Of a DNA stretch of 28,736 nt, positions 3,489 through 27,970 are shown in pieces (position 1 is the stretch's first letter; every line of letters begins with the position of its first letter). The translations under genes and the position numbers were made by a program. The notes under the pieces were generated by a model that did not search any database, was not told the DNA's origin, and worked only from the letters and a program-made list of their open reading frames with translations. This stretch comes from a virus: IMG/VR virus record IMGVR_UViG_3300033156_000601, positions 1-28,736 of that record. The stretch is one strand, 5' to 3'.

Positions 3489-3977
3489 CTAAACTTCTGT
3501 AATATCCAATCTTTTCAGAATTTTTATATACTCCTCATAACCATATCTGTCAATTATGAACTTCCTTAATATTGAAATCATGTAAGCAAATCTATTATTA
3601 GTAATTTTTAATTTATCACTTACAGTTGGGCAACAATAAGCGTTACATATTTTAGACTTTAATAGATAACCAAGTTTACATCGTTTAGTCTTAGGGTCAA
3701 AAAATCCGTATTTCTTGCTAAATCTGAACCTTTTCTTAAGAAAATTTACATACTCTGGTGAGCTGTCAGGGAAATAATTAAAATAACCATCTTCTTCAGC
3801 ACAATCAACACAACAACCTCTTTTGATTTTTTCATTCTTATTTGAACCACACCAAAACTCTGAAACGCAATTTTTACAGAATTTGTTTATTTTTGAGTTA
3901 TAATCGTCTGCTTGTACATCAAGTGACCTAAGCAAGTTTTCAAACAATTTTCTTAAGTCAGTATTTAGTTTTTCCAT
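3489..3977 (-). CDS. Cys-rich family A protein, copy 1
   Basis: A 162-residue protein and one of three paralogues in this operon. The shared core is CxxC, then RGCCVDCAEEDGYF, then a KYGFFDPKTKRCKL block, then LKSKICNAYCCP, followed by a helical C-terminus. The GCC-x2-C and later Cys positions are kept in all three copies, which points to a metal site (zinc or iron-sulfur) rather than chance. The CC-containing core recalls the YkgJ-type Cys-cluster proteins only loosely. The start overlaps the end of the zinc gene at 3965-4141. Function is unknown. Confidence 0.75.
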   Translation of the reverse strand: MEKLNTDLRKLFENLLRSLDVQADDYNSKINKFCKNCVSEFWCGSNKNEKIKRGCCVDCAEEDGYFNYFPDSSPEYVNFLKKRFRFSKKYGFFDPKTKRCKLGYLLKSKICNAYCCPTVSDKLKITNNRFAYMISILRKFIIDRYGYEEYIKILKRLDITEV

Positions 3978-4150: not shown

Positions 4151-4684
4151 CTATTTTTTTAAATTTATACCTAACTCTTTTACTTTTTTATTATAAAGTT
4201 TGAACTGTTGTGTATACCTGTTATTGAACAGTCTCATAGCATTTTTAGGTTTATCCCAACATTTTATATCGAATATTATATCATTCCTTAATTTATCCAT
4301 ATTTTCACACACATTAAATAACAATGTTTCTATAAGCGGATTACAATGATATCTCAGACACTTTACGCTACGCAAATGAACAGGAAGTTTACAACATTTT
4401 TTATCAGTATCAAAGAAACCATAATCTTTATCAAATTTGATAAACCTTTTAATCTTATCCAAATCCTCTTTATAATGATATCCTTTATTTTCAACACACT
4501 TTACACAACACCCGGCGTTTATTTTTTTACCTGTATTAAGTTTTTTCCAGTATTCAGGGCACACTTTTGGGCAAAGCTTTTTGTACCTGTTCAGTATAAA
4601 TTTTACACATAGTATGTATGAGATTAATTCTACATACTTATTATTTAAATGTTTTGAGTAATTAAACTTAAACTCTTTTTCCAT
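4151..4684 (-). CDS. Cys-rich family A protein, copy 2
   Basis: A 177-residue paralogue of the 3489-3977 and 5004-5486 products. It shares INAGCCVKCVENKGYH, the KDYGFFDTDKKCCKLP block and LRSVKCLRYHC. It differs by having CPKVCPEYW in place of the first CxxC and a longer charged C-terminal helix. No clear GGAGG lies before the ATG, so translation may rely on coupling with the gene upstream. Metal binding is inferred; the role is unknown. Confidence 0.75.
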   Translation of the reverse strand: MEKEFKFNYSKHLNNKYVELISYILCVKFILNRYKKLCPKVCPEYWKKLNTGKKINAGCCVKCVENKGYHYKEDLDKIKRFIKFDKDYGFFDTDKKCCKLPVHLRSVKCLRYHCNPLIETLLFNVCENMDKLRNDIIFDIKCWDKPKNAMRLFNNRYTQQFKLYNKKVKELGINLKK

Positions 4685-5003: not shown

Positions 5004-5486
5004 CTAAACATGCCTCTTTGCAAGTTTGGCAATTTCTAAAAACTTTTTAAGCCCGTATCTGTGTAGTATATACGTTCTAATCTCATCAAAAGCCAAGCAA
5101 GGGTTCTTTGAGACGTCTATACCTTTCAACGCTTCCGGACAGGCATAAACGTTGCATGTATACGATTTAAACATTGTTGGCAGTTTACACTTTTTTGTTT
5201 TAGTGTCAAAGAACCCGTCAACTTTGTTAAAACCAAACTTCTTTTTTACGTAATCAATAAACTTAGAATTATCTCTGTCTGAGAAATAACCTTCAGACTT
5301 AGCGCACCATACACAACATCCTCTTTTGGTTTTTTTACTTTTATTCCACTCTACCCAATCAGCATCCTTACAATCTTTACAACTTTTATTTATTTTATAG
5401 TTATTATCTATAATATCCCTTACAATGTACGCTATGCTCATCACAAGCATATCTTTTTCTAACTTGCCGATTTTTTTTGAGTTCAT
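5004..5486 (-). CDS. Cys-rich family A protein, copy 3 (first gene of the operon)
   Basis: A 160-residue paralogue carrying CKDC, TKRGCCVWCAKSEGYF, the KVDGFFDTKTKKCKLP block and KSYTCNVYACP. It is the most upstream gene of the leftward operon. No clear Shine-Dalgarno precedes the ATG, which fits a short-leader archaeal transcript. A TATA-like GGTTATAATCC lies about 45 bases upstream on the minus strand, but its BRE is weak. The conserved spacing of Cys among three copies argues for a preserved metal site. Confidence 0.75.
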   Translation of the reverse strand: MNSKKIGKLEKDMLVMSIAYIVRDIIDNNYKINKSCKDCKDADWVEWNKSKKTKRGCCVWCAKSEGYFSDRDNSKFIDYVKKKFGFNKVDGFFDTKTKKCKLPTMFKSYTCNVYACPEALKGIDVSKNPCLAFDEIRTYILHRYGLKKFLEIAKLAKRHV

Positions 5487-6813: not shown

Positions 6814-6849
6814 AAAAAAAAGGTTATATGGTTTTAATAACCATATAAC
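6814..6849 (-). terminator. Intrinsic terminator overlapping the stop codon of the 6834-7196 gene
   Basis: An 11-base-pair perfect stem (GTTATATGGTT with AACCATATAAC) is followed on the minus strand by C and eight T. The stop codon of the gene lies in the five-base loop and the last codons form one arm. Confidence 0.75.
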
Positions 6850-7196
6850 ATTTTGGCGTATTTACGCAATTTTGAAGTCAAAACACTTTTTGTAAATGCT
6901 GTTATCTCCTTATTTTCAAGGTTTTGGGCTTGTTCTGTTAGGTTCTCAAAATCTATACCCAACTCCTTTAAATCGGTTCTTATCTTATCGCTGGTTATTT
7001 CTAATAAAACCTTATTGGTTTTATGTCCTTCTACTTCTTGCTCATTCGGTAAATCAACTTTAAAAGTCAATTTACCATTACCCGATAATAAATCATTTAT
7101 ACGATTTAATCGGGTTTCGGCTCTTTTAACAATATCATTAAAACCGATATTGTTAATCTGTTTAACAGGTTTAACCTGTTCTGTTACTGATTTCAT
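6834..7196 (-). CDS. Hypothetical protein, first gene after the tandem promoters
   Basis: A 120-residue protein of mixed charge. The middle is beta-like (GKLTFKVDLPNEQEVEGH) and the C-terminal third is helical (KSVLTSKLRKYAKMLYGY). An AGGGGGTT ribosome-binding site lies upstream. It stands out for its control: a leader of about 100-290 bases with two hairpins, four promoter-like units upstream, and a strong terminator inside its end. Such heavy regulation suggests an early or regulatory protein. No known DNA-binding motif is seen. Confidence 0.7.
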   Translation of the reverse strand: MKSVTEQVKPVKQINNIGFNDIVKRAETRLNRINDLLSGNGKLTFKVDLPNEQEVEGHKTNKVLLEITSDKIRTDLKELGIDFENLTEQAQNLENKEITAFTKSVLTSKLRKYAKMLYGY

Positions 7197-7222: not shown

Positions 7223-7291
7223 ACACATATAGTAATCTAACTATATGTGTAGTTTTGGTTTTGCTATGCCGTCAAGGGCATAACCCAAAAC
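7223..7291 (-). promoter_or_regulatory. Structured leader with two hairpins before the 6834-7196 gene
   Basis: ACACATATAG and CTATATGTGT (7223-7232 and 7241-7250) form a perfect ten-base-pair stem with an eight-base loop. Next to it, GTTTTGG pairs with CCAAAAC (7252-7258, 7285-7291), enclosing TATGCC with GGCATA (7265-7270, 7277-7282). Both lie inside the predicted leftward leader, so RNA regulation is possible; a DNA operator is the alternative. Confidence 0.6.
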
Positions 7292-7299
7292 ATATATAG

Positions 7300-7508
7300 G
7301 TATACTATAAGTATATTTAAATCTTTTGGTTTTGAAATTTAAAAATCATAAAGTCCAAAAAGTAAAGATATTTAAGTTTATAAAGTTTTCTATTAGAATT
7401 TTAAAGTCCAATAAGTAAATACTTATAAGTATTTAAACCTTTCGATTAGAATTTAAATGTCCAATATTTAAAGATATTAAACTATATAAATTTTTCGGTT
7501 TGGTTTTT
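7300..7508 (-). promoter_or_regulatory. Tandem leftward promoter-like units, 53-base period
   Basis: Three units share AAAGTCC or AAATGTCC with GTCC at 7353, 7406 and 7459, exactly 53 bases apart; a partial unit lies to their left. On the minus strand each contains a BRE/TATA-like block: CCGAAAAATTTATATAG (about 7482-7498), CGAAAGGTTTAAATA (about 7430-7444), GAAAACTTTATAAAC (about 7376-7390) and CCAAAAGATTTAAATATA (about 7312-7329). They all point to the 6834-7196 gene. Confidence 0.6.
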
Positions 7509-7514
7509 TATTAC

Positions 7515-7710
7515 TTTAAAGTAACAATTTTTCTTCTTTAACTTTATAGTAGTAACAATCCTAAAATCTTTAACTTTTGAGTGGTAAATTTAAATTTATC
7601 ATTTTAAAATAGTAACAATTCCTATTTGTCATTTTGCAATAGTAACAAAGTTCTTTTTTATCATTATTTAGTAGTAACACCCGCTGTTGTTATTTTATAG
7701 TAGTAAAAAA
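7515..7710 (+). repeat. Phased repeat block 1 (TATAGTAGTAACAA-type), seven units
   Basis: The core GTAA begins at 7521, 7553, 7584, 7612, 7642, 7674 and 7703, giving steps of 32, 31, 28, 30, 32 and 29 bases. The fullest form is TTTATAGTAGTAACAA (7543-7558). Flanks differ between units. The step is close to three turns of B-DNA, so bound proteins would sit on one face. The last unit abuts the promoter of the 7762-7917 gene. Confidence 0.75.
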
Positions 7711-7722
7711 AAGAATAATAGC

Positions 7723-7738
7723 ATAAAGTTTATAAAGG
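7723..7738 (+). promoter_or_regulatory. Archaeal promoter for the 7762-8285 cassette
   Basis: AAAGTTTATAAAG places a TATA box about 28 bases before the ATG at 7762, as expected for a leaderless transcript. No Shine-Dalgarno precedes this ATG. The last repeat of block 1 lies just upstream of the BRE. Confidence 0.7.
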
Positions 7739-7761
7739 GTTTTGTGTTTTTTATTATTAAA

Positions 7762-7917
7762 ATGGAAAACACAAAATTAACACAAAATAAGGTATGTATG
7801 CCATCTATGGCGAACATAAAAACCATAGCCAAACTTAAATGTGGGTGTGTTATGGTGGGTAAGATTAAAACGCACTTCTGTTTTAATTGCTGGGAGAAGT
7901 ACAATAGGGGGTATTAA
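7762..7917 (+). CDS. Small zinc-binding protein, 51 residues
   Basis: The first gene of a rightward cassette bracketed by the two phased repeat blocks. I start it at the ATG at 7762 because of the promoter spacing; an upstream extension would run through the TATA box. The C-terminal half holds KCGC and then HFCFNCWEKY, a Cys-x-Cys plus Cys-x2-Cys arrangement with a nearby His that could bind one zinc. The rest is basic. A DNA-binding regulator of the flanking repeats is an attractive idea but rests only on context. Confidence 0.65.
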   Translation: MENTKLTQNKVCMPSMANIKTIAKLKCGCVMVGKIKTHFCFNCWEKYNRGY

Positions 7918-7919
7918 AA

Positions 7920-8285
7920 ATGGATATATTAAGTAGAATACTAAAAGATTTAGCAAATAATTTGACTGATTACATAAAACCAGATATACTTTTTAATGTA
8001 TTATTGCACATTAACAATAAATACAGAAGTAAGTTTAATGATTGTAGTAATGTAGAGTTAATAAGAGATATAAAAACCATATTTGATTATAAAAATATCA
8101 AATATGACTTTATTTCAGAAAATAAAACTATGACTAAATCTATAAGTAAGAACACAATCACAATACAGGGGGATATTGATACCGATATAAAAAATTGTAT
8201 TGCAAAAATGATACAAGAATACTACGGCGTACCTGATGAGATTGTTATAAGCAATAATGATAATATAACATATTTTAATTTTTAA
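7920..8285 (+). CDS. Hypothetical protein of the repeat-flanked cassette
   Basis: A 121-residue protein starting three bases after the zinc gene, with AGGGGG at the end of that gene as ribosome-binding site. The N-terminal 75 residues are mostly helical (LSRILKDLANNLTDYIKPD) and the C-terminal part alternates strands and helix (NTITIQGDIDTD). No helix-turn-helix, Walker or nuclease motif is visible. With its partner and the flanking repeats it may form a replication, partition or regulatory unit, which is inference. Confidence 0.7.
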   Translation: MDILSRILKDLANNLTDYIKPDILFNVLLHINNKYRSKFNDCSNVELIRDIKTIFDYKNIKYDFISENKTMTKSISKNTITIQGDIDTDIKNCIAKMIQEYYGVPDEIVISNNDNITYFNF

Positions 8286-8296
8286 TTTTTTTATTA

Positions 8297-8604
8297 TTTT
8301 ATAGTAGTAATTATTCTAATTATTTTTTATTCTATTTTTTTAAAATTAATTTCAGCTTTAAAAATTGTTTTTTAACCTGTATTAATTTTCATTACTACTA
8401 AGTGGTACTAACTATTTTAGAGTAATAACAGCTTGTTACTACTATAATATACGACATCTATTATATAGTAGTAACAAATTGTTTATTTGTTATTATGAAA
8501 TAGTAACAAATGTATTTATTGCAACTCTTAAATAGTAACAAATCTGGTTTTAACTACTATTGAGTAAATACAGATTTTGGTTGCCATTTTTGAGTGGTGA
8601 AAAA
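8297..8604 (+). repeat. Phased repeat block 2, with direct and inverted copies
   Basis: Direct copies lie at about 8298-8310, 8415-8430, 8461-8478, 8492-8510 and 8525-8542, with weaker ones at 8559-8570 and 8587-8604. From 8471 the GTAA/GTGA cores step by 32, 32, 29 and 33 bases. Inverted copies are at 8391-8400 and 8433-8447; the latter is the exact reverse complement of TTATAGTAGTAACAA in block 1. No gene is seen between 8286 and 8641. Confidence 0.7.
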
Positions 8605-8641
8605 TGGAAATATAGTATAGCCATGTCATCACAACACGGAT

Positions 8642-9073
8642 TTAATTTTTTGAACTCTTTGAGACGCCTCTAGCTTTATATTCATAGGATCCATCTTTTG
8701 AGGGTGTTATTTTTATGTTATTATTGATAACAACCCACTGTTTATTGTTTTTTAATGTTTTGCATTTAGATTTAGTTTGTATTATTTCTTGTATGTTTAT
8801 TACCAGATCAAACAAAAGCGTCTCGTTTTTTATTTTAGTGTTCATAATTGAAGCACTGATATTACTTTCAAAGCCTTTATTGATAATAGTAAGTTCTTCT
8901 AAGCCATCGGTAAATTTAAAGGATTTTACATTTACATTAAAATCGTCAAAGTTAATTCCGTTTTTAGCTTTAATATTTTCAATAACAAAAGAAAACCCCG
9001 GGGTGCCTTTAAAGTATTCAAACACCTTAACTATTTCACTTGATCCAAGATACTTTCCTTTTGATCGCGCCAT
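8642..9073 (-). CDS. Hypothetical protein, 143 residues
   Basis: The last gene of the leftward terminase transcript, ending beside repeat block 2. The product has a basic start (MARSKGKYLGSSEIVKVF) and a beta-rich body with alternating hydrophobic residues. A modest AGGTATC lies upstream of the ATG, which follows the preceding gene by three bases. No family is recognised. Confidence 0.7.
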   Translation of the reverse strand: MARSKGKYLGSSEIVKVFEYFKGTPGFSFVIENIKAKNGINFDDFNVNVKSFKFTDGLEELTIINKGFESNISASIMNTKIKNETLLFDLVINIQEIIQTKSKCKTLKNNKQWVVINNNIKITPSKDGSYEYKARGVSKSSKN

Positions 9074-10005: not shown

Positions 10006-10749
10006 TCAAACTATTTTATACTTTTTCCTGTCAAACGTTCGCTTAGCTGTAGCCGTCTCAAACTCGTGCCAGGCCAGTTTGTCGTTGTAACTGAACCAGA
10101 CATGTTTTATTCCTATTATATCTTTAGAGTCACCGAACACTGGCAGTTCGTTTATGTTTTCAGGAATAATATAATAAGGGCTGGTACTATTCAAGTGCAC
10201 CCACGTTTTTTGGTCATCAAGAAGGTAGTACACTGTACAATGCCCAAACCCTGAATAAGTCACGCCTGCAGTAACACGAACACGATACCTTGGCACCCCC
10301 ATGGCAATCAGCATGCTCGCTATTGAGTTAGCATAATCATCACAATCAAGTCCCTTGCCGAGCTTTCTAAGTGCCCTGAGCTCGAACGGAAACACCCACA
10401 TTTCTATAGTATTGAAAGTGTCCTCGTCATAAGCGTACTTAAAAAATTCCTTTTGATGAGCGTCGTAAGCTTTCATGACAACATCGTCAGTTTTCAGTTT
10501 ATTTACTACTTTAAAGTCGTGCTTTTTCAACCAGTTTTGTATATTGACATCGTTAGGCTGCACGAAAGTTCTTACGTCAAGCGACACTCTTTTGTCGTTG
10601 TAAGGGAAAGGCAAGACCCTTCCAACGTATGTCACGTTAGACACTGGATGCTTATTGTTCCAGTAATTTTCATAATATCTACCACTATCAAGTGACGATA
10701 TTATCAAGTTGCATGTCTTTATTATTAGGTTTTTTATTTCGGTTTTCAT
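10006..10749 (-). CDS. Transglutaminase-like cysteine protease-fold protein
   Basis: A 247-residue protein with the papain-like transglutaminase core. Catalytic Cys136 lies in GKGLDCDDYANSIASMLIAM, His170 in SGFGHCTVYY, and the third position is probably Asn187 in WVHLNSTS. Members of the fold act as proteases, peptide-bond or amide-modifying enzymes. The start overlaps the stop of the large terminase gene as ATGA, so the two are made together. In a tailed virus it could process virion proteins or help degrade or cross-link the envelope during entry or exit; the sequence does not decide. There is no signal peptide. Confidence 0.8.
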   Translation of the reverse strand: MKTEIKNLIIKTCNLIISSLDSGRYYENYWNNKHPVSNVTYVGRVLPFPYNDKRVSLDVRTFVQPNDVNIQNWLKKHDFKVVNKLKTDDVVMKAYDAHQKEFFKYAYDEDTFNTIEMWVFPFELRALRKLGKGLDCDDYANSIASMLIAMGVPRYRVRVTAGVTYSGFGHCTVYYLLDDQKTWVHLNSTSPYYIIPENINELPVFGDSKDIIGIKHVWFSYNDKLAWHEFETATAKRTFDRKKYKIV

Positions 10750-12128
10750 ATTGCCACCATATCAACAAACTCTTTTTGATCAGACGTAACCTTGCAGGCA
10801 AGTATAAGCGCTGCTACCGTGTCATCGTGTTTAGCCGTGGAAAGGTACGTTTCGACGTTAGTCTTGGTTTTACTCTTCCTGAACCCTATAAGTTCATCCA
10901 CGAGCCTTTCAGCAAAATGTTTAGTCTCAGGGTCGGAAGGGTTAGCAGGTATAACCAAAACAGACTTACCGTGTTTGTCAGGCTGCATGATCATTTGCAG
11001 GTTAACCAGCATTTGTTTCCGTTCACGCGCATAGAACGGTCCTTCGAGCACAGGGTAACCTTCAGATAACAGGTCTTTATATATAGTAGAACCAACATTA
11101 GACGGATCAACTATACAAAAGTTAGCCCTATACTTTTTGAACAGGTTTCTTATCCTTTCCTTTTTAGACTCAACATGTTCACCCTTGTGCAGTTCACCGT
11201 GAAGTATGGTAACTTTACCCGAGTACCGTTCAACGACTACGTAACAATCAAAGTCAGCCCTGTCCGCGCTCGACATGGCAAAGTCAGCGCCAATGACCAC
11301 GCACGAGTTTTCTGATTCTGGTAACCCGAACCGTTTATTTTTGTCAAGGCAATTATATATCCAGTCATGCGGAAACACGGCTTTATCGTTACCCACTTTA
11401 GGGTTTAGCATGAACTGTGTCTGGAACGCTTCCTCGCCGATCCTTTTACGTATACTGTTAAGTTCTTCAATGCTAAACTTCTCAGGCCAGATCGGTTTGC
11501 CTTTAATAATCGCCGGATACTTTTTATGAAAATAATCAGAATTTCCTGCCAGTTCTTCAACCATGTCGCCAGGGTTATCAGGCACACCAACGCAACAAAT
11601 CGTGCCCTTGGTATGCGAAACCGTGGGCTCTATACCTTTCCAGTATACTTGCCTATCGGTTATGTCTTGTACTTCGTCAACGAACACGTAATGCAAAGAC
11701 AGTCCTTTGATCTTTGTAGTGAACGCTTTCGCGTACAGTTTTGAACCGTTGTTAAGCTTTATACCTTTCTTGCCCCATGTTTCAGGGTTGTCTGGTTTAA
11801 GTTCTCTCAGTATATCATTGTTTTCAATTAAAGTCTTTATGTCTTCAAGAATCTTGATAGCCTGCCCTTCCTCTGACGCAGTAATCAGAACGTTACGTTT
11901 TTCGTGGTAGAACGTTAACCAGATTGGATAAAGTATCCCAAGCACCATGGACTTTCCGTGCTGCCTTGGCGCTTCTATCATTGAAAACCTGTGCCTTGAA
12001 ACAATGTCAGCCCACTCAACGTGAAAATCCTTGAGCCTAAAGTCTGGCGAAATGGTCGGGCCCACTAGTTCGTTGCAGAACTTTTCAAAATCGAAGTAAC
12101 ATTTGTCAAGAAAAAGTGGATCATTCAT
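10746..12128 (-). CDS. terL: Terminase large subunit (packaging ATPase/nuclease)
   Basis: A 460-residue motor protein that drives DNA into the head and cuts it. The ATPase domain shows Walker A at residues 53-60 (APRQHGKS), Walker B around Asp151-Glu152 (YVFVDEVQD) and a coupling motif near residue 181 (CCVGVPDN). The RNase H-like nuclease domain shows acidic residues at Asp282 (IGADFAMSSADRADFD), Asp341 (FCIVDPSN) and Asp435-Asp436 (KHDDTVAALI). I take the ATG at 12128, next to the stop of the small subunit; the longer frame starts with TTG. It is transcribed away from the portal gene, unlike most tailed viruses. Confidence 0.95.
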   Translation of the reverse strand: MNDPLFLDKCYFDFEKFCNELVGPTISPDFRLKDFHVEWADIVSRHRFSMIEAPRQHGKSMVLGILYPIWLTFYHEKRNVLITASEEGQAIKILEDIKTLIENNDILRELKPDNPETWGKKGIKLNNGSKLYAKAFTTKIKGLSLHYVFVDEVQDITDRQVYWKGIEPTVSHTKGTICCVGVPDNPGDMVEELAGNSDYFHKKYPAIIKGKPIWPEKFSIEELNSIRKRIGEEAFQTQFMLNPKVGNDKAVFPHDWIYNCLDKNKRFGLPESENSCVVIGADFAMSSADRADFDCYVVVERYSGKVTILHGELHKGEHVESKKERIRNLFKKYRANFCIVDPSNVGSTIYKDLLSEGYPVLEGPFYARERKQMLVNLQMIMQPDKHGKSVLVIPANPSDPETKHFAERLVDELIGFRKSKTKTNVETYLSTAKHDDTVAALILACKVTSDQKEFVDMVAI

Positions 12129-12471
12129 TTTCTTTTTTCTTTTCACGTTCTTCTTTCTTTTTAAGGTAATGAGCTTTCCTGTCAATTAAAATATCCTTGC
12201 CCTCGAACGAATCACGCGGCCAGATAATTACCGTGCACGCCCTGTCAACGTAAAACTTTGGAAGGGTTACCAATGTAGCATTCTTGCCGTGTTTCCTTAT
12301 CACTTTGTTAACAACAGCAACAGATTTCCTGAACAATATTTGAAACGCCCTGCACACTGCTGCCATCTCTTCATAAGTCAAGGTTTCAGTTTCAGCGTTA
12401 ACCTTGTCAACAAACTCAGACTCGTTAAGTTCACCGTTAAGAAATTGTATAGCAAGGTCTTTAAGTCTCAT
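12121..12471 (-). CDS. terS: Probable terminase small subunit
   Basis: A 116-residue, mostly helical, charged protein whose 3' end overlaps the large terminase gene by eight bases. The ATG at 12471 lies about 26 bases downstream of a strong BRE/TATA and has no Shine-Dalgarno, as for a leaderless gene; a longer frame would run into the promoter. The C-terminus is highly basic and acidic (KKKEEREKKKENE). Assignment rests on position and size. It should recognise viral DNA and load the large subunit. It could instead be an unrelated small protein. Confidence 0.65.
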   Translation of the reverse strand: MRLKDLAIQFLNGELNESEFVDKVNAETETLTYEEMAAVCRAFQILFRKSVAVVNKVIRKHGKNATLVTLPKFYVDRACTVIIWPRDSFEGKDILIDRKAHYLKKKEEREKKKENE

Positions 12472-12491
12472 AATATATATGTGTTTTTTAT

Positions 12492-12510
12492 TATTTATAA
12501 ACTTTTCGGT
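12492..12510 (-). promoter_or_regulatory. Leftward BRE/TATA promoter of the terminase operon
   Basis: On the minus strand ACCGAAAAGTTTATAAATA. The TATA box is about 26 bases before the ATG at 12471. The 17 bases AACCGAAAAGTTTATAA recur exactly at 14237-14253. Confidence 0.8.
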
Positions 12511-12530
12511 TGTTTCGATTTTACGAAACA
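12511..12530. promoter_or_regulatory. Inverted repeat between divergent promoters (candidate operator)
   Basis: TGTTTCG, six bases, then CGAAACA form a perfect inverted repeat. The right arm is the BRE of the rightward promoter; the left arm abuts the leftward BRE. A dimeric regulator here could switch both operons together. Confidence 0.6.
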
Positions 12531-12540
12531 TTTATATATA
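12524..12540 (+). promoter_or_regulatory. Rightward BRE/TATA promoter of the S-layer-like gene
   Basis: CGAAACATTTATATATA lies about 55 bases before the ATG at 12594. A start some 25 bases downstream leaves a leader of about 30 bases with a ribosome-binding site. Confidence 0.75.
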
Positions 12541-14256: not shown

Positions 14257-14281
14257 TAGAATTACTATTATATAGTAGGAA

Positions 14282-14539
14282 ATGGTAACTAGACAATTCT
14301 ATGAAAAATTAAAACTGCCTTTTAAAAAGGTAAAGAGCATAGTAGTTCAAAATAAGGATAAACTTGTGTACTTCAAAGACCTAGTGATACTTGTAGTAGT
14401 ATACGGTATAATGTTAAACCTTTCGCTTAACTTATTGCTGAACATAAAATTCTCATTACTTAACATAATATCGTCAGGTCTGTTGTTTTATTTGATAAAA
14501 ACTGAACTACCGATAATAATAAAGGAGTGTAAGCAATGA
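14282..14539 (+). CDS. Small membrane protein, two predicted helices
   Basis: An 85-residue protein with hydrophobic stretches at about residues 32-52 (KDLVILVVVYGIMLNLSLNL) and 58-72. The N-terminal 28 residues are basic and likely cytoplasmic. It starts close to its promoter with little room for a ribosome-binding site. The stop overlaps the portal start as ATGA. A holin or an early membrane-associated assembly factor is possible; no family is recognised. Confidence 0.65.
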   Translation: MVTRQFYEKLKLPFKKVKSIVVQNKDKLVYFKDLVILVVVYGIMLNLSLNLLLNIKFSLLNIISSGLLFYLIKTELPIIIKECKQ

Positions 14540-15789
14540 AACCAATATCATCTATACTTGTAAAAGAAAACATAATAAACCCAAAGTTTGAAGGTGGCAA
14601 GGGATCCAAAGAGTCCAAAGAATTAACACCTACCGCTAAACGTGTAAGCCTTAAAGAACTTGAACTGGCTTACTATAACGACGGTTTGATATTTAACTCA
14701 GTAAACAAGATTCTTCAACGCATGTTCAACCAGGGTAAGTTTAAGATAGTAGTAAAGGATCAAAAAATAAAAAACTTTATGAACGAGTTCACTGAAAACA
14801 TAGGCAACTCTGGCTCAGCCCTAACATGGAAGGAACTGTTGCGCAACATAGCGTTCAATGCCTGCGTGTTCGGCAGAGCGCCAGTCGAAAACGTGTTCAA
14901 TAAGCGTGACAACCGTATAGTAGACTTTGACATAATAAACATAAAATCTATCGATTACGCTAAAGATACAAACAAAAACATAGTACTGGATAACAACGGC
15001 AGGCCTGTTGGTTACATACAATCTTTACCACTTAACCATCCATTCGACCCAGGCGTACAAAAACTGCCAAAAAACGTTGTACCGCCTAACAACAAGTACA
15101 TTTACATCCCAGCAAAAAAGGTTGCAATGATTTCACTTTACCAAATCGGTGACGGTTTTTACCCGGTAGGCCTTGTTGAACCAATTTATACTGACAGCTT
15201 AAGAAAGCTTAACCTTAAATCAGCCGCAGCGAACGCTGCGTACTGGTTGGGGTGGCCAATACTTCACGCAAAGTTAGGCAACCAAAACCACGAACCGAAC
15301 GCTCAACAGATAGGCAACATGCTTAAAGTATTGAAAGAACTCGATTACAAGAAACAGTTGGCAACGCCTTATTATTATGATATAAACGTGATCCAGGGTG
15401 ACACTGACGCTTCACGCAGTGCTAAAGAAAACGTTGAGCTGTTTGAAGATGAAGAAGTATCTGGGTTAGGCATACCCAAATCAATCGCAAAGAACTCAAC
15501 TGACAAGTCAGGCACAGCTGTCCAAAGACATCTTATGATGTCATTCAATTTAACAGTTATAGACATAGCTGACCGCATTTGCGAGTCAATAACAAAAAAC
15601 ATGTTCAAACCATTAGCAGAGTACGAAAAGTTTGACGAAGTACCGAGACTGGTGTTTGAATTAAGTGGTACAGATGAGTTAGACGCTGTAGCTAGAAGGT
15701 TACTGCGTTATGTAGATGCAGGCATACTAAAGCCTGACCAAAAGATAGGCGATTTACTTTTAAGTTTAGAAAATTTACCGGAGGAATAA
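14536..15789 (+). CDS. Portal protein (DUF935/Mu gp29-like)
   Basis: A 417-residue protein matching the portal group related to Mu gp29. Visible landmarks are the N-terminal FNSVNKILQRMF helix, the segment AFNACVFGRAPVENVF, a strand-loop region with DNNGRPVGYIQ, and the C-terminal GLGIPKSIAKNSTDKSGTAVQ stretch typical of the stem/crown region. Portals form a dodecameric ring at one vertex through which terminase packages DNA. It has a GGAG ribosome-binding site and overlaps the membrane protein gene. The order portal, protease, capsid downstream supports the call. Confidence 0.85.
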   Translation: MKPISSILVKENIINPKFEGGKGSKESKELTPTAKRVSLKELELAYYNDGLIFNSVNKILQRMFNQGKFKIVVKDQKIKNFMNEFTENIGNSGSALTWKELLRNIAFNACVFGRAPVENVFNKRDNRIVDFDIINIKSIDYAKDTNKNIVLDNNGRPVGYIQSLPLNHPFDPGVQKLPKNVVPPNNKYIYIPAKKVAMISLYQIGDGFYPVGLVEPIYTDSLRKLNLKSAAANAAYWLGWPILHAKLGNQNHEPNAQQIGNMLKVLKELDYKKQLATPYYYDINVIQGDTDASRSAKENVELFEDEEVSGLGIPKSIAKNSTDKSGTAVQRHLMMSFNLTVIDIADRICESITKNMFKPLAEYEKFDEVPRLVFELSGTDELDAVARRLLRYVDAGILKPDQKIGDLLLSLENLPEE

Positions 15790-16157: not shown

Positions 16158-19100
16158 ATGAAGCTAACATTCCTTGGCACTGGACCGTGCTGTGGAACTA
16201 TCGAAGAAAGAAAAGGCAGGTTTAGAAGTTCTTTATACATTGAAGACCGTGACATAAAGATTTTGGTAGACTGTTCACCAGACTTTTCAGAGCAAGTTAA
16301 AAAGTTTAACGTAAACGTTATAGACTTTCTTATCTTAACACACGGTCATGAGGATGCCGTAGCAGGTTTACCGCAGTTAAAAAAATTTCTTGATGGGAAA
16401 AAGATTTTAGCAGTCATGGAAAAAAAGACCAGGGACATAGTGTTAAACAAATTTAAAGATGTTACTGACTACCTGGAAATACGTTTAATGTCGCCAAATG
16501 TAGCATTTAAAATAAGAGACATTGACATTGTTCCATTCAGGGTTATACACTCAATACAGCCAGGGTTTCCTACAGTAGGCTTGAAATTGAATAATATCAT
16601 ATACGCCGAAGACATGGAAGCCCTAGCTCACGCTAAAGACAAAGAACTGTTCAAAAGATCTAATATAATCATAATTGACGCAGCGATGTGGTTAGGGAAA
16701 CACATAAAAGGCCACATGAATGTTAAAGACGCTTTAGAGTTTGCTTTAGAGTTTTCGCCTAAAAAATTGATTCTTACACAAGCAGGCAGGACTTATCCTG
16801 AGCACAATAAAGCCGAGGTTATAATAAAAAAGTTATGGAAAGAGATGGGCGGTTCACCAGACACAGACGTAATGCTTGCCAAGGATGGAATGATAATAAA
16901 AACTGAAAGCCTTATACGAAGTACACTAAAACGCAACAATAACGCAATTTGTTTGCCTGATTCTCATTGCGAGATGCTAATGAACAACGAAAAAGATTTA
17001 GTTGTACTTAATTCAGAGTTAACATCAAAAATAGGAAAGATCTTTTACCTGACCAGCCAACAAAAGTGTTATGGCCTAGCAAGAGTGAACGAAATATTCA
17101 AGGTAAAAGATTTTGAAGAGTTATATGATAGGCACAAGATCAGTCCTGAAGAAAAACAAAAATGGTGGCCAAACACTAACGCTTTGTACGCTTACAAGAT
17201 AGAAGTGTTAAGAACGTTCGAGCCAGTAATGGTAAAGTTATCAAAAAATGACATTTTCACAGAAATATTAGAATTCGTTCAGGTAGAAGAACTTATAAAA
17301 GATATACACAACTACGATCCAAAACAAGTTAACACGAACGTTCTTCTTGACGATTTTAGGATAGTCAACGCATGGTACGCTACCAAACGTCGTGGTAAAA
17401 AGTTCAAGTACAGCCTTGAAGAAATTGTTAACCTTGCAAAGTTAATATACAAGGAACTAAAAAAGCGCGGTGTACAGTTTCATCCGGAAAAGATGAAAAG
17501 TTATTCTAAGGAACTATTCAACAAAATCTCAAAAAGTTCAGTTATTAACATTGACCTAAAAGATCCAAACTTGCTCGACAACTTTGACGATTTTAAAATC
17601 ATAGACAACTTTATTTCAGTTTGCGGTTCAGTAGTTGACCAAAGGGCGGACCATGAACCTAATGACATGGACCTGCATATAAGGCTCAGCATGGACCACG
17701 CTGTAACTTGCCCTAACTGTAAAAGAGAGTTCGTGTACAATTGTAACGAGTACATAAAACGCGCTGTAGAAGTAAGGTTATGGAAAATGTTGAACAAGAA
17801 CTGTCCTGAGCTGTTAGACAAACTTCACATGATCTGGGGCGATCCCGAAGGTTCGCATGATACTTATGTTCCTTTATACGATCTTGTGCTTAAAAGAATA
17901 TTGCCAATTAAACGAGTAGAAATGAGGTTATTGGTAGATAAACAGGAAAAATACTTGCCACAAAAACCAGTCAGTCCTGCTTTTCACGATGTAGACGAGT
18001 TAATTTCGCATTTAAAGAATTATCCTTACTATGTTGAAGAAAAGGTTAACGGTTTTCATTTTATAGCAATAAAGTCTGATAATGATGTAAAGGTTTACAC
18101 AGAAGATGGTAAAGATATGACAAAACACTTACCAACGTTTGTTAAAGAAATAAAGAAGTTATCATCAGTTAACTTCTCAATAGATGGTGAGCTTTTTATA
18201 GTAGAAAATGGAGTACAAAAAGGCAGAGCCGATTTGATTAAGTTTGTTACACAAAAAGAAATCCCTGACGATAAAAATGTGCATGCTAAGGTATGGGACA
18301 TAACATTTTATAAACGAGATTTAAAAAACTTAGCTCTTAGGGTAAGGAAACAATACCTTAAAAAGCTTCATTTCACTGACAGAATAAAAGAAGTGAGAAC
18401 CAAATTTTGTGAAACCGAGAAAGAAGTTAGAGACGCCATAAACTCAATGTCAAAGATTAAATACTCAGAAGGCGCCGTTGTGAAAGAAGCTGACTCAACG
18501 TACTCACCTGGCAAAAAAATCAGTGCATGGTTAAAGTACAGAAATTATCTTTACTTCAATTTACACGTCCTAAAAGTAATAAAAAACGAAGCTGGCAATT
18601 ATAACTACCTTGTAGGAGTAAAAGCTTCTGATAAAAACATTGACGAGTCAAAGGTTGAAAACGGTTATTTAGTTTTAGGCAAAACGTTCAATACTAAATT
18701 TAAAGCAAACGAAGGAAGCAATATAGAGGTACAAGTTGAAGAGGTCTGGAGGCATGAGTCAAAGGACGGAACGTTTTATTATTCAATACACAAACCTAAA
18801 GTAATCGGCCCTGCAAAAGGCAAAGTTTCGACAATTAAAGACCTGGACGATGCTGTAGTTTCACTTGGAATGGTAGTCATAGAAAACAAAAAGACTGATA
18901 AAAGTGAAGGTGGTGGTCATCTTAAGCCTGAAGAAAGCATAATAAACTTCCCAAAAACTGTGCAAGCTGATTACAAAAAAAACATTGGAAAACGCAACAA
19001 GTACATAATACATGCTCACCAGATAGGCAAAAGTATACACTTTGACATAAGGCACAAAGTAAACGATCATCTTCAAGGGTTTACCGTGTTTACTACTGGC

Positions 19101-19502
19101 GATTATCCAAACTTCAAAAACTTAAAAGGCGAAGTGAAGCATTTCAGGGGCGCTGTGAAAGAACCTCAGCCAACTGAATGGTTAAGATTTGAAGGTGTTA
19201 CAGAACCAGGCAAGATTGGCGCTTTAAGATCAAAACAATTCGGAGGCGTCTTTACAATAATATCTAAAGGCGAATATGAAGTACTAGAAGTAGACGATCA
19301 TAAGATCCACATAAAGTATTATCCAGAAAGTGGTAAAATAAACAAAAAACCTATCGAAGAAGCAAAAGAAAGAAACTGGCCAGTATGGAACCCTGGAGAA
19401 AATCTAATAAATTTCAACAAAACTATTTCTTACCATATAGCACACATAGGTGATAAACATATAATGCTAATTGACGAACTAAAAAATGTCAAAAGTAAGT
19501 GA
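16158..19502 (+). CDS. MBL-fold / nucleotidyltransferase / ATP-dependent DNA ligase / 3'-phosphoesterase fusion
   Basis: A 1,114-residue fusion. Residues 1-255 are a metallo-beta-lactamase domain (THGHEDAVAG at 61-70; His131, Asp152, His186 retained). Residues 262-360 look like a PUA/ASCH-type domain, followed by a helical linker. Residues 470-600 hold a nucleotidyltransferase-like motif (Gly490-Ser491, Asp503, Asp505) and CPNC. Residues 610-920 form an ATP-dependent ligase: Lys629 in EEKVNGF, Asp676/Glu678 in SIDGELF, Glu771 in SEGAVVKE, Lys793 in AWLKYRN, then an OB-like part. Residues 945-1110 resemble the LigD 3'-phosphoesterase (His954, His961, Asp963). It could process and seal DNA ends. 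Domain borders are approximate. Confidence 0.8.
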   Translation: MKLTFLGTGPCCGTIEERKGRFRSSLYIEDRDIKILVDCSPDFSEQVKKFNVNVIDFLILTHGHEDAVAGLPQLKKFLDGKKILAVMEKKTRDIVLNKFKDVTDYLEIRLMSPNVAFKIRDIDIVPFRVIHSIQPGFPTVGLKLNNIIYAEDMEALAHAKDKELFKRSNIIIIDAAMWLGKHIKGHMNVKDALEFALEFSPKKLILTQAGRTYPEHNKAEVIIKKLWKEMGGSPDTDVMLAKDGMIIKTESLIRSTLKRNNNAICLPDSHCEMLMNNEKDLVVLNSELTSKIGKIFYLTSQQKCYGLARVNEIFKVKDFEELYDRHKISPEEKQKWWPNTNALYAYKIEVLRTFEPVMVKLSKNDIFTEILEFVQVEELIKDIHNYDPKQVNTNVLLDDFRIVNAWYATKRRGKKFKYSLEEIVNLAKLIYKELKKRGVQFHPEKMKSYSKELFNKISKSSVINIDLKDPNLLDNFDDFKIIDNFISVCGSVVDQRADHEPNDMDLHIRLSMDHAVTCPNCKREFVYNCNEYIKRAVEVRLWKMLNKNCPELLDKLHMIWGDPEGSHDTYVPLYDLVLKRILPIKRVEMRLLVDKQEKYLPQKPVSPAFHDVDELISHLKNYPYYVEEKVNGFHFIAIKSDNDVKVYTEDGKDMTKHLPTFVKEIKKLSSVNFSIDGELFIVENGVQKGRADLIKFVTQKEIPDDKNVHAKVWDITFYKRDLKNLALRVRKQYLKKLHFTDRIKEVRTKFCETEKEVRDAINSMSKIKYSEGAVVKEADSTYSPGKKISAWLKYRNYLYFNLHVLKVIKNEAGNYNYLVGVKASDKNIDESKVENGYLVLGKTFNTKFKANEGSNIEVQVEEVWRHESKDGTFYYSIHKPKVIGPAKGKVSTIKDLDDAVVSLGMVVIENKKTDKSEGGGHLKPEESIINFPKTVQADYKKNIGKRNKYIIHAHQIGKSIHFDIRHKVNDHLQGFTVFTTGDYPNFKNLKGEVKHFRGAVKEPQPTEWLRFEGVTEPGKIGALRSKQFGGVFTIISKGEYEVLEVDDHKIHIKYYPESGKINKKPIEEAKERNWPVWNPGENLINFNKTISYHIAHIGDKHIMLIDELKNVKSK

Positions 19503-19626
19503 AAAAGAAGTAAACAAAATAATAGAATTAACATTAAAAGGCCTTAACCGTAAAGAGATTTCTAAAAAATTAAACAGGTCAAAGGACACTATTTGGCGTT
19601 ATCAAAAGAAATTTTGTTACCTTTGA
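19486..19626 (+). CDS. Small helix-turn-helix protein, 46 residues
   Basis: It overlaps the end of the ligase fusion by 17 bases. The segment LTLKGLNRKEISKKLNRSKD followed by TIWRYQKK has the pattern of a resolvase/sigma-type helix-turn-helix: a helix, a turn at NR, and a recognition helix starting at SKDTI. It may be a DNA-binding regulator; its position just before a promoter (19632-19643) would suit local control. No Shine-Dalgarno is seen, so it may depend on coupling. Confidence 0.6.
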   Translation: MSKVSEKEVNKIIELTLKGLNRKEISKKLNRSKDTIWRYQKKFCYL

Positions 19627-19631
19627 ATAGT

Positions 19632-19643
19632 AAAATTTATAAG
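19632..19643 (+). promoter_or_regulatory. Promoter of the protease-scaffold/capsid operon
   Basis: AAAATTTATAAG puts a TATA box centred about 30 bases before the ATG at 19670, with no ribosome-binding site between, as for a near-leaderless transcript. The BRE is weaker than at 14237. Confidence 0.65.
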
Positions 19644-20865: not shown

Positions 20866-21801
20866 ATGAAAAAAACTATTCAGGAACTAGCAAACGAAAC
20901 CACAACTTCATCTACTGGTATCAGCGACGTCCAGGGAGAGGAATGGTTAAAAGAGATCTTAGCAACAGCTAAGCAAAAAATGTTCTTTGACCAGTTCGCT
21001 TTCCACGTCAATGTACCGAAAGGAGTTAAAGACATGCACGTGCCAATTTCAACTTCGCACTTGAGTTTCACGAGCGTTTCAACTGAAGCAAGTGCAAGAA
21101 CTTTAACAGAGGTTACTAACCTTACAGTTAAAACTTTCACGCCTGTGTCAGCTAAATACGGCGCTGCTATCGCTAAAGAAGTAATGGATACTTCACAGGT
21201 TGACGTTGTAAAATGGGCAAGGGAAGAAATGGCATACAATATGGCTCTTGACATGGACAAAGCTTTCGCAAGCGCGTTAGAGTCAGCAAGTTCTCCAGCT
21301 GCAACACTTTACGGTGGAGACGCTTCAGCAACAAACAACCTGGCAAGCGGCGACATTTTAACAACCGACTTGATCGCTAAAGCGCAGAGATACCTTAAAG
21401 CTAACGGTTGGTACCCGGAGAACAGCAGGCCATTTGTCTTGTTCATACCAGCAGTTGCAGAGGAATCTTTGCTCAAGGACAGTCAGTTCGTTAACGCTTC
21501 AGAGTACGGCAGTGACAGGGTAGTCGCTAACGGCGAGATTGGCGAATACTTGGGTATAAGAGTCATTGTGAGCGAACAATGTCCAAGTTACAGCAACTGG
21601 GGCAGCGGTTCATTAGCAGGCCACGTGTGCTTCTTGGTTAAAGCGCAGGTTGCTTACGGTATAGCCATCAGGGAAAAACCAACCCTCGATTGGGAATACA
21701 AGAAGGACGAAGCTGCGCACTACATTTACTTGGACACAGCTTTCAAGTGTGACACATTGCAAGAAAACGCAATCGTTGTCATAAACGTATCGGATGCTTA
21801 A
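20866..21801 (+). CDS. Major capsid protein (HK97 fold)
   Basis: A 311-residue protein preceded by AGGAGGT. The helical N-terminal arm (EEWLKEILATAKQKMFFDQF), the strand-rich centre with LTVKTFTPVSAKYGAAIAKEV, the long spine-like helix WAREEMAYNMALDMDKAFASAL and the C-terminal strands around YGIAIREKPTLDWEY fit the HK97 fold. Position after protease/scaffold and before decoration and connector genes agrees. The composition is less A/T-rich than the left half of the window, as expected for a highly expressed gene. A hairpin terminator encloses its stop codon. Confidence 0.88.
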   Translation: MKKTIQELANETTTSSTGISDVQGEEWLKEILATAKQKMFFDQFAFHVNVPKGVKDMHVPISTSHLSFTSVSTEASARTLTEVTNLTVKTFTPVSAKYGAAIAKEVMDTSQVDVVKWAREEMAYNMALDMDKAFASALESASSPAATLYGGDASATNNLASGDILTTDLIAKAQRYLKANGWYPENSRPFVLFIPAVAEESLLKDSQFVNASEYGSDRVVANGEIGEYLGIRVIVSEQCPSYSNWGSGSLAGHVCFLVKAQVAYGIAIREKPTLDWEYKKDEAAHYIYLDTAFKCDTLQENAIVVINVSDA

Positions 21802-27323: not shown

Positions 27324-27970
27324 TGGCAGGCGAATATTCAGGTAAAGCTCCAGAAACATGGAGCGAGAAAGCTTTAGTAGCTGTAGACATAGAAGGCGGC
27401 AACACAATACTTTTTAACACAATAACAGAAAGCGTTGACTTAGACTTAGGCGAGAAAGGGTTTGACAGTATAGCAACCGTGGGCGGTGGCAGGCTTGTAA
27501 AGTTCAACCCTGAAGAAGACAGTTCATGCACACTAGAAATGTACCCGATTGCCGCAGGCAACCTGTGGAGCACTGACGGTTCAGAGGGCATAGGTTTTTA
27601 TGACTTGTTACAACCAAAAGACAGCACTTACGATGGTAGCACTACGGTCATACAAGAGATCACAAACAGTCTTACAAGAAACAGGTGCAGGCTTACTATT
27701 TTATGGACAAACGATACAAGCATTACAGACCCAACCTCAGCAATAAGTTCAGCTTACGCAGTGTTAAGGGTCAGCATGTGCGGTTACTTCACAAAAGTGA
27801 CTCCAAGTTTCACTGACAAGGTTTTAAAAGTAACAGCAAATTTTAAGGCACCAGCGTTCAAGAAAGACGGTTCATCCAACATACAAGTCATGTCCACAGA
27901 CGATGCCAGCGTGTCAAATATAACCCAGTTGGGAGCATTTACAAGCTCTGACAACTTCCCAACATCATAA
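27323..27970 (+). CDS. Major tail tube protein
   Basis: A 215-residue beta-rich protein in the normal place for the tube subunit: after the neck genes and before the chaperones. Visible strands include KALVAVDIEGGNTILFN, SCTLEMYPIAAG, RNRCRLTILWTND and VLKVTANFKAPAF. The moderate length and the neutral, Ser/Thr-rich composition fit. It has an AAAGGAGG site and is followed by a T-rich tract. No sheath gene precedes it, which favours a non-contractile tail. Confidence 0.72.
   Translation: MAGEYSGKAPETWSEKALVAVDIEGGNTILFNTITESVDLDLGEKGFDSIATVGGGRLVKFNPEEDSSCTLEMYPIAAGNLWSTDGSEGIGFYDLLQPKDSTYDGSTTVIQEITNSLTRNRCRLTILWTNDTSITDPTSAISSAYAVLRVSMCGYFTKVTPSFTDKVLKVTANFKAPAFKKDGSSNIQVMSTDDASVSNITQLGAFTSSDNFPTS

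Follow-up and report, generated by a model that had tools for sequence, protein, structure and literature searches.

The locus examined here raises the question of what phased repeats are doing on both sides of a small two-gene cassette, and whether they serve replication, partition or gene control. The cassette lies in a 28,736-bp stretch that we call the window, an IMG/VR record, analysed over its whole length, that is classed as linear and is probably a fragment. A large terminase, a portal and an HK97-type capsid protein are all encoded in it, the combination by which a tailed virus (Caudoviricetes) is recognised. Capsid relatives in IMG/VR show 57-69% identity and terminase relatives number ~40; the nearest named relative of the capsid protein, at 30% identity, is the major capsid protein of Altiarchaeum virus Altivir_8_HURL (BK059162). 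Unlike the window, Altivir_8_HURL, one of the Altiarchaeum viruses described in PMC8324899, shows neither the array nor the cassette genes. Leaderless TATA-type promoters common to the relatives, together with a capsid relative that infects Altiarchaeum, suggest that this is probably a tailed virus infecting archaea. A host search by way of genome contigs found no provirus and no host genome, and the window contains no tRNA or Rfam matches.

Measurement of the repeats, which were located at the positions given, bore out much of the geometry described in an initial sequence-only reading. Seven units do lie to the left of the cassette at steps of 28-32 bases (31, 32, 28, 30, 32 and 29), and the block to the right, in which direct and inverted copies had been seen, holds five in-phase units (steps of 32, 32, 32 and 30) together with inverted copies at 8433 and 8389 (Table 1). 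The suggestion that such spacing would align bound protein on one face of the DNA is plausible for the right array, where each step corresponds to 3.05 turns, and holds only approximately for the left (2.7-3.05 turns). The left block had also been placed directly against the cassette's TATA box; it is indeed near, but its last unit stops 18 bp before the box (7729) and does not abut it. The repeated unit, initially taken to be a 14-mer, proved to be a 25-bp imperfect dyad with the consensus TTTGTTAYTAT-NNN-ATAGTAACAAA in the aligned units, the right half being the more constant. Dyad matches average 6.3 of 11 positions, compared with 3.4 in the local background. A competing axis at -1.5 bp still gives 5.8 matches, indicating that the symmetry is real but partial, and because the unit is itself dyadic, part of the "inverted" matching reflects its own symmetry. 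Conservation peaks at AGTAACAA and reaches its minimum in the TATA-like part, which argues against reading the units as plain TATA boxes. Two other identities were considered and rejected: an array of TATA boxes, since units 3-5 have no TATA sequence and the TATA part is the least conserved, and a CRISPR-like array, since a conserved part of up to 25 of ~31 bp leaves intervals too short for spacers.

Table 1. Repeats, genes and operator-like sites in the window (scores refer to the symmetric matrix unless labelled direct).
Feature	Position	Strand	Remarks
Divergent neighbour of the cassette	6834..7196	-	120 aa; weak ribbon-helix-helix candidate, possible array binder
Three 53-bp tandem repeats	7344..7502		~5 turns each; TATA-like core in each; 74-77% identity to first copy; adjoin left array
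Left unit 1	7504..7528	+	TTTTTTATTACTTTAAAGTAACAAT; score 20.9
Left unit 2	7535..7559	+	TCTTTAACTTTATAGTAGTAACAAT; score 19.2
Left unit 3, degenerate	7567..7591	+	AGTGGTAAA; in phase, weak: 3.7 symmetric / 6.9 direct
Left unit 4	7595..7619	+	score 19.9
Left unit 5	7625..7649	+	TTTGTCATTTTGCAATAGTAACAAA; score 22.6
Left unit 6	7657..7681	+	score 20.1
Left unit 7	7686..7710	+	score 21.0
Cassette TATA box	7729..7736	+	TTTATAAA; 33 bp before ATG at 7762; leaderless-type archaeal promoter
Cassette gene 1	7762..7917	+	51 aa; CxC-x10-CxxC; small zinc-type protein
Cassette gene 2	7920..8285	+	121 aa; GGGGGT ribosome-binding-like sequence upstream
Isolated direct unit	8290..8314	+	directly 3' of gene 2; 15.1 symmetric / 19.8 direct
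Inverted copy	8389		
Inverted copy	8433..8446	-	exact match to TATAGTAGTAACAA
Right unit 1	8454..8478	+	score 16.4
Right unit 2, best dyad	8486..8510	+	TTTGTTATTATGAAATAGTAACAAA; score 25.5; 10/11 paired positions
Right unit 3	8518..8542	+	score 21.9
Right unit 4, weak	8550..8574	+	in phase; score 9.7
Right unit 5	8580..8604	+	score 13.2
Large terminase	10746-12185	-	
Operator-like dyad	14258..14282		over start site of the leaderless gene 14282 promoter (TATA 14247), before portal gene
Portal	14536-15789		
Metallo-beta-lactamase/DNA ligase fusion	16158-19502		one 1114-aa protein; ligase ATP-dependent
Operator-like dyad	19613..19637		overlaps BRE/TATA region (TATA 19636) of the leaderless gene 19670 promoter, head-protein operon
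HK97-type capsid protein	20866-21801		

The repeats are genuine and greatly exceed chance expectation. Between 7500 and 8610, AGTAACAA occurs 8 times, whereas across 2000 order-3 simulations of equally A/T-rich DNA no 8-mer with at least two G/C exceeded 5 copies; the excess over A/T-rich expectation, on which the sequence-only reading had staked its case, is thus present. TAGTAAC is found 9 times on both strands of the 28,736 bp, with 8 of the 9 copies inside 7550-8540. A 25-nt weight matrix identified 11 sites scoring ≥12, compared with none in 482 and one in 18 of 500 simulations; since these same sites went into the matrix, the test is in part circular. The symmetric matrix used for the scores in Table 1 was derived from ten array units, leaving out left unit 3.

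Both blocks occupy well-defined intergenic positions. The left array occupies the region from which the minus-strand gene 6834-7196 and the plus-strand cassette diverge, and the right array fills the gap (8286-8641) between the cassette and a converging gene, 8642-9073. These stretches are the most A/T-rich non-coding DNA of the record (GC 0.19-0.22), and direct repeats at near-helical steps adjoin a small gene there. The 53-bp tandem repeat next to the left array runs to three to nearly four copies over 7300-7502. As first read, the cassette encodes a zinc-type protein and an unknown protein, for neither of which a relative was found. Comparison of the two with IMG/VR, phages, plasmids, Pfam, PHROGs, NCBIfam and the PDB returned nothing convincing; gene 2 has no family or structure match by sequence, and its structure model is poor (pLDDT 52). 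The ribosome-binding-like sequence ahead of gene 2 is in keeping with its place as second gene in an archaeal operon.

Operator-like dyads are also present at two late promoters of structural genes, which favours a regulatory locus that acts beyond itself. By the symmetric matrix, 19613-19637 (TTTGTTACCTTTGAATAGTAAAATT, score 12.9, shuffle p 0.0018) and 14258-14282 (core TACTAT-TAT-ATAGTA, score 11.6, shuffle p 0.005) are the two best sites in the genome outside the repeat island. These p-values come from dinucleotide shuffles of each of the 15 non-coding gaps of ≥40 bp outside the island; significant sites (p ≤ 0.01) occur in 2 of the 15, with nothing in the other 13. After Bonferroni correction over the 15 gaps this statistical evidence is modest, at 0.08 for the 14282 gap and 0.03 for the 19670 gap. 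In a control with 2000 symmetry-preserving permutations of the matrix columns, the two highest-scoring sites of the genome fell in these two gaps in 0.1% of trials, and in 0 of 2000 did both gaps attain the observed scores. A site within coding sequence at 27780 scores nearly as high (11.4). All three TTTATAA[AG] leaderless promoters examined, with TATA boxes at 7729, 14247 and 19636, carry sites. A TATA box ~30-35 bp before the start ATG is the archaeal leaderless pattern, and in many relatives a TATA-type sequence precedes the ATG of the gene 14282 or gene 19670 homologue by ~30-35 bp; the like distance suggests that these two promoters are probably real. Archaeal repressors act at the BRE/TATA region and the start site (PMC5569661).

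The motif was also followed in related viruses. No homologues of the cassette, or of any gene to the left of 10.7 kb, were found in the relatives, and since the motif recurs in viruses without the cassette, it seems to be a property of the virus group and not of the cassette. TAGTAAC, a word chosen from the window, was followed through related loci in 76 kb of non-coding DNA freed of redundancy. It forms clusters within 60 bp in four contigs, which places it first of 420 words of the same composition, the next best reaching two; in one of the four (L161) the cluster is probably coding. In relative L032, near-identical TAGTAGTAACAAAA / AGTAGTAACAAAATA copies recur at 35-bp steps close to the end of the contig, ahead of the terminase block; this phased array, at 10260-10447, is truncated by the contig end. 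Relative L029 has two TAGTAACAT copies, spaced by 19 bp, upstream of a gene for a 120-aa protein, and in L168 (6769-6811; also in L169) an inverted TAGTAACTACA pair surrounds a TATA box and is likely to be an operator pair. Searching IMG/VR for sets of three TAGTAACA-type copies yielded coding repeats or chance matches, and a longer TTGTTACTACT pair gave 13 matches, mostly coding, one of which is the capsid relative L032/L186. A generic scan of the relatives for phased repeats was swamped by low-complexity words. Another relative, G002, carries repeats of its own in a non-coding island (L027 3061-3345; at least five copies of the ATATAGYRAYAGCTA type), and their sequence is unlike that in the window.

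We propose that the repeats act as operators: a dimeric regulator encoded by the virus would bind them, control the cassette and repress late operons, much as SvtR, F55 and AvtR do. We consider this account probable. The array would then most likely serve as the hub with which the virus switches its own genes, and less likely as a new replication origin. Seven operators would stand upstream of the cassette's leaderless promoter and about five more downstream; since the steps are near three helical turns, bound dimers could cooperate along the helix, and contacts between the two blocks could span the cassette. The array may set or buffer the amount of regulator as well as autoregulate, and the single operators at the two late promoters would allow the regulator to keep late genes blocked until there is a change in its level or occupancy. 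Against the operator model, a dozen sites exceed the needs of ordinary autoregulation, and the right array lies between converging genes without a known promoter. A broader version, which we advance only tentatively, is that one dimeric regulator of unknown family uses the dozen or so phased dyads flanking the cassette to couple control of the cassette, and possibly replication, with the timing of late operons, the half-site TAGTAAC being common to an entire group of uncultivated tailed archaeal viruses.

Known regulators of archaeal viruses come mainly from crenarchaeal viruses. Among these precedents, SvtR controls its own promoter and that of a structural gene, the targets of F55 are tandem repeats that cover BRE and start sites, and ribbon-helix-helix (RHH) proteins spread cooperatively along multiple operators (PMC5569661). 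The window resembles the SvtR, AvtR and F55 systems in having imperfect inverted or tandem repeats at the cassette's own and other viral promoters, over BRE or start sites, and in having a repeated operator motif, above chance, at multiple sites. It differs in that their viruses are rod-, filament- or spindle-shaped whereas this one is tailed, in a consensus unlike that of F55 (ATAGATAGAGT) or AvtR (ATnnTnnTAnnACnTT), and in the dozen phased operators that flank the cassette, with the regulator represented here by candidates alone. What we describe is a well-ordered regulatory array from a group of viruses that has gone unstudied; its details are new, its kind familiar. How tailed archaeal viruses of uncultivated hosts regulate their genes has hardly been explored, and because the operator sequence, the target promoters and a list of candidate binders can all be read from one fragment, the proposal is testable in vitro.

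An iteron-type origin with copy control is a less likely reading, although one with a reasonable claim to attention. An initiator, either the gene 2 product or a host factor, would bind the left block as iterons, open the A/T-rich DNA and be autoregulated, and the right block would titrate or handcuff it, as incA and incC of P1 and F do. In P1 oriR/incA and F oriS/incC, iterons flank rep at steps of ~2 turns, and the window shares with them a small gene flanked by direct repeats, A/T-rich DNA, near-integral helical steps and a mixture of half-sites and dyads, and has the 53-bp repeat family alongside. The well-conserved direct halves, of which only some form full dyads, also recall the iterons and operators of RepE and RepA. 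The steps here are near 31 bp, however, no Rep homologue was recognised, and no adjacent initiator, helicase, primase or polymerase gene is recognisable, gene 2 matching no family; copies at unrelated late promoters would moreover be unexpected for iterons. GC skew, put forward earlier as a guide to the origin, tracks the orientation of the genes, and skew at third positions does not point consistently to an origin. Origin and operator functions could coexist, and if the array were also a replication origin it would represent an initiator system without a known relative. Of the roles entertained in the sequence-only reading (a new kind of iteron origin, a partition site or a self-regulated locus), the regulatory locus is favoured, in a form that acts beyond itself; an origin is less likely, and partition improbable.

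The remaining readings are all improbable, in differing degree. Stoperator-like sites, at which a binder halts transcription, would fit the position of the right block, exactly in the interval where genes converge (8286-8641), which it would insulate, and this reading we regard as improbable. In mycobacteriophages, immunity repressors work through numerous asymmetric stoperators (PMC9283540), one site being present in many copies per genome, some of them outside promoters as here; those sites are scattered and asymmetric, whereas the copies in the window are clustered, phased and partly dyadic. The off-island copies lie at promoters and not between genes genome-wide. All stoperators known to us are scattered singly, and we know of none phased at ~3 turns. 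Still less probable is a centromere-like partition site to which a small cassette-encoded adaptor would bind: phased repeats do adjoin a small operon, an arrangement also seen in parC/ParR and tubC/TubR, but the cassette lacks a ParA, ParM or TubZ-like motor gene, none was named among the proteins scanned in the fragment, and the late-promoter copies fit poorly. We give the least credence of all to functionless DNA, either low-complexity A/T-rich sequence or the relic of a tandem duplication; the region is 78-79% A/T with simple A/T repeats nearby, but it shows a strong excess over A/T-matched simulations, G and C are present in its conserved part (AGTAAC) whereas the flanks diverge, and the half-site word clusters in related viruses.

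For the operator model, the candidate binders can be placed in a provisional order, with the product of 6834-7196, a weak ribbon-helix-helix candidate, first and cassette gene 2 or gene 1 next. Comparison of 6834-7196 with PHROG points weakly to Arc-like repressors (E 0.019 and 0.037), and a low-confidence single-sequence model (pLDDT 65) predicts a strand at 62-67 followed by helices at 70-78 and 83-91; fold comparison by Foldseek and VIA-align gave no meaningful match, a negative that is not evidence in itself. The L029 gene 15564-15923, which lies next to similar repeats, was considered as the only possible homologue of 6834-7196 and rejected, being colinear with it at a similarity that is not significant (shuffle p 0.1). 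An inverted repeat, CACATATAG-N8-CTATATGTG, at 7224-7249 covers the likely minus-strand promoter of 6834-7196 and contains a partial ATAGTAA half-site.

Several other features of the genome were observed. Three minus-strand Cys-rich proteins (3489-3977, 4151-4684 and 5004-5486) resemble paralogues and have a common GCCVxC motif, and none has a Pfam match above cut-off. Matches of the relatives to the fusion protein at 16158-19502 are mainly to its middle and ligase parts. The terminase block (10746-12531) lies on the strand opposite the capsid gene, whereas the two are on the same strand in relatives where both were located; judging from these gene orientations, the block is evidently inverted in this virus relative to its relatives.
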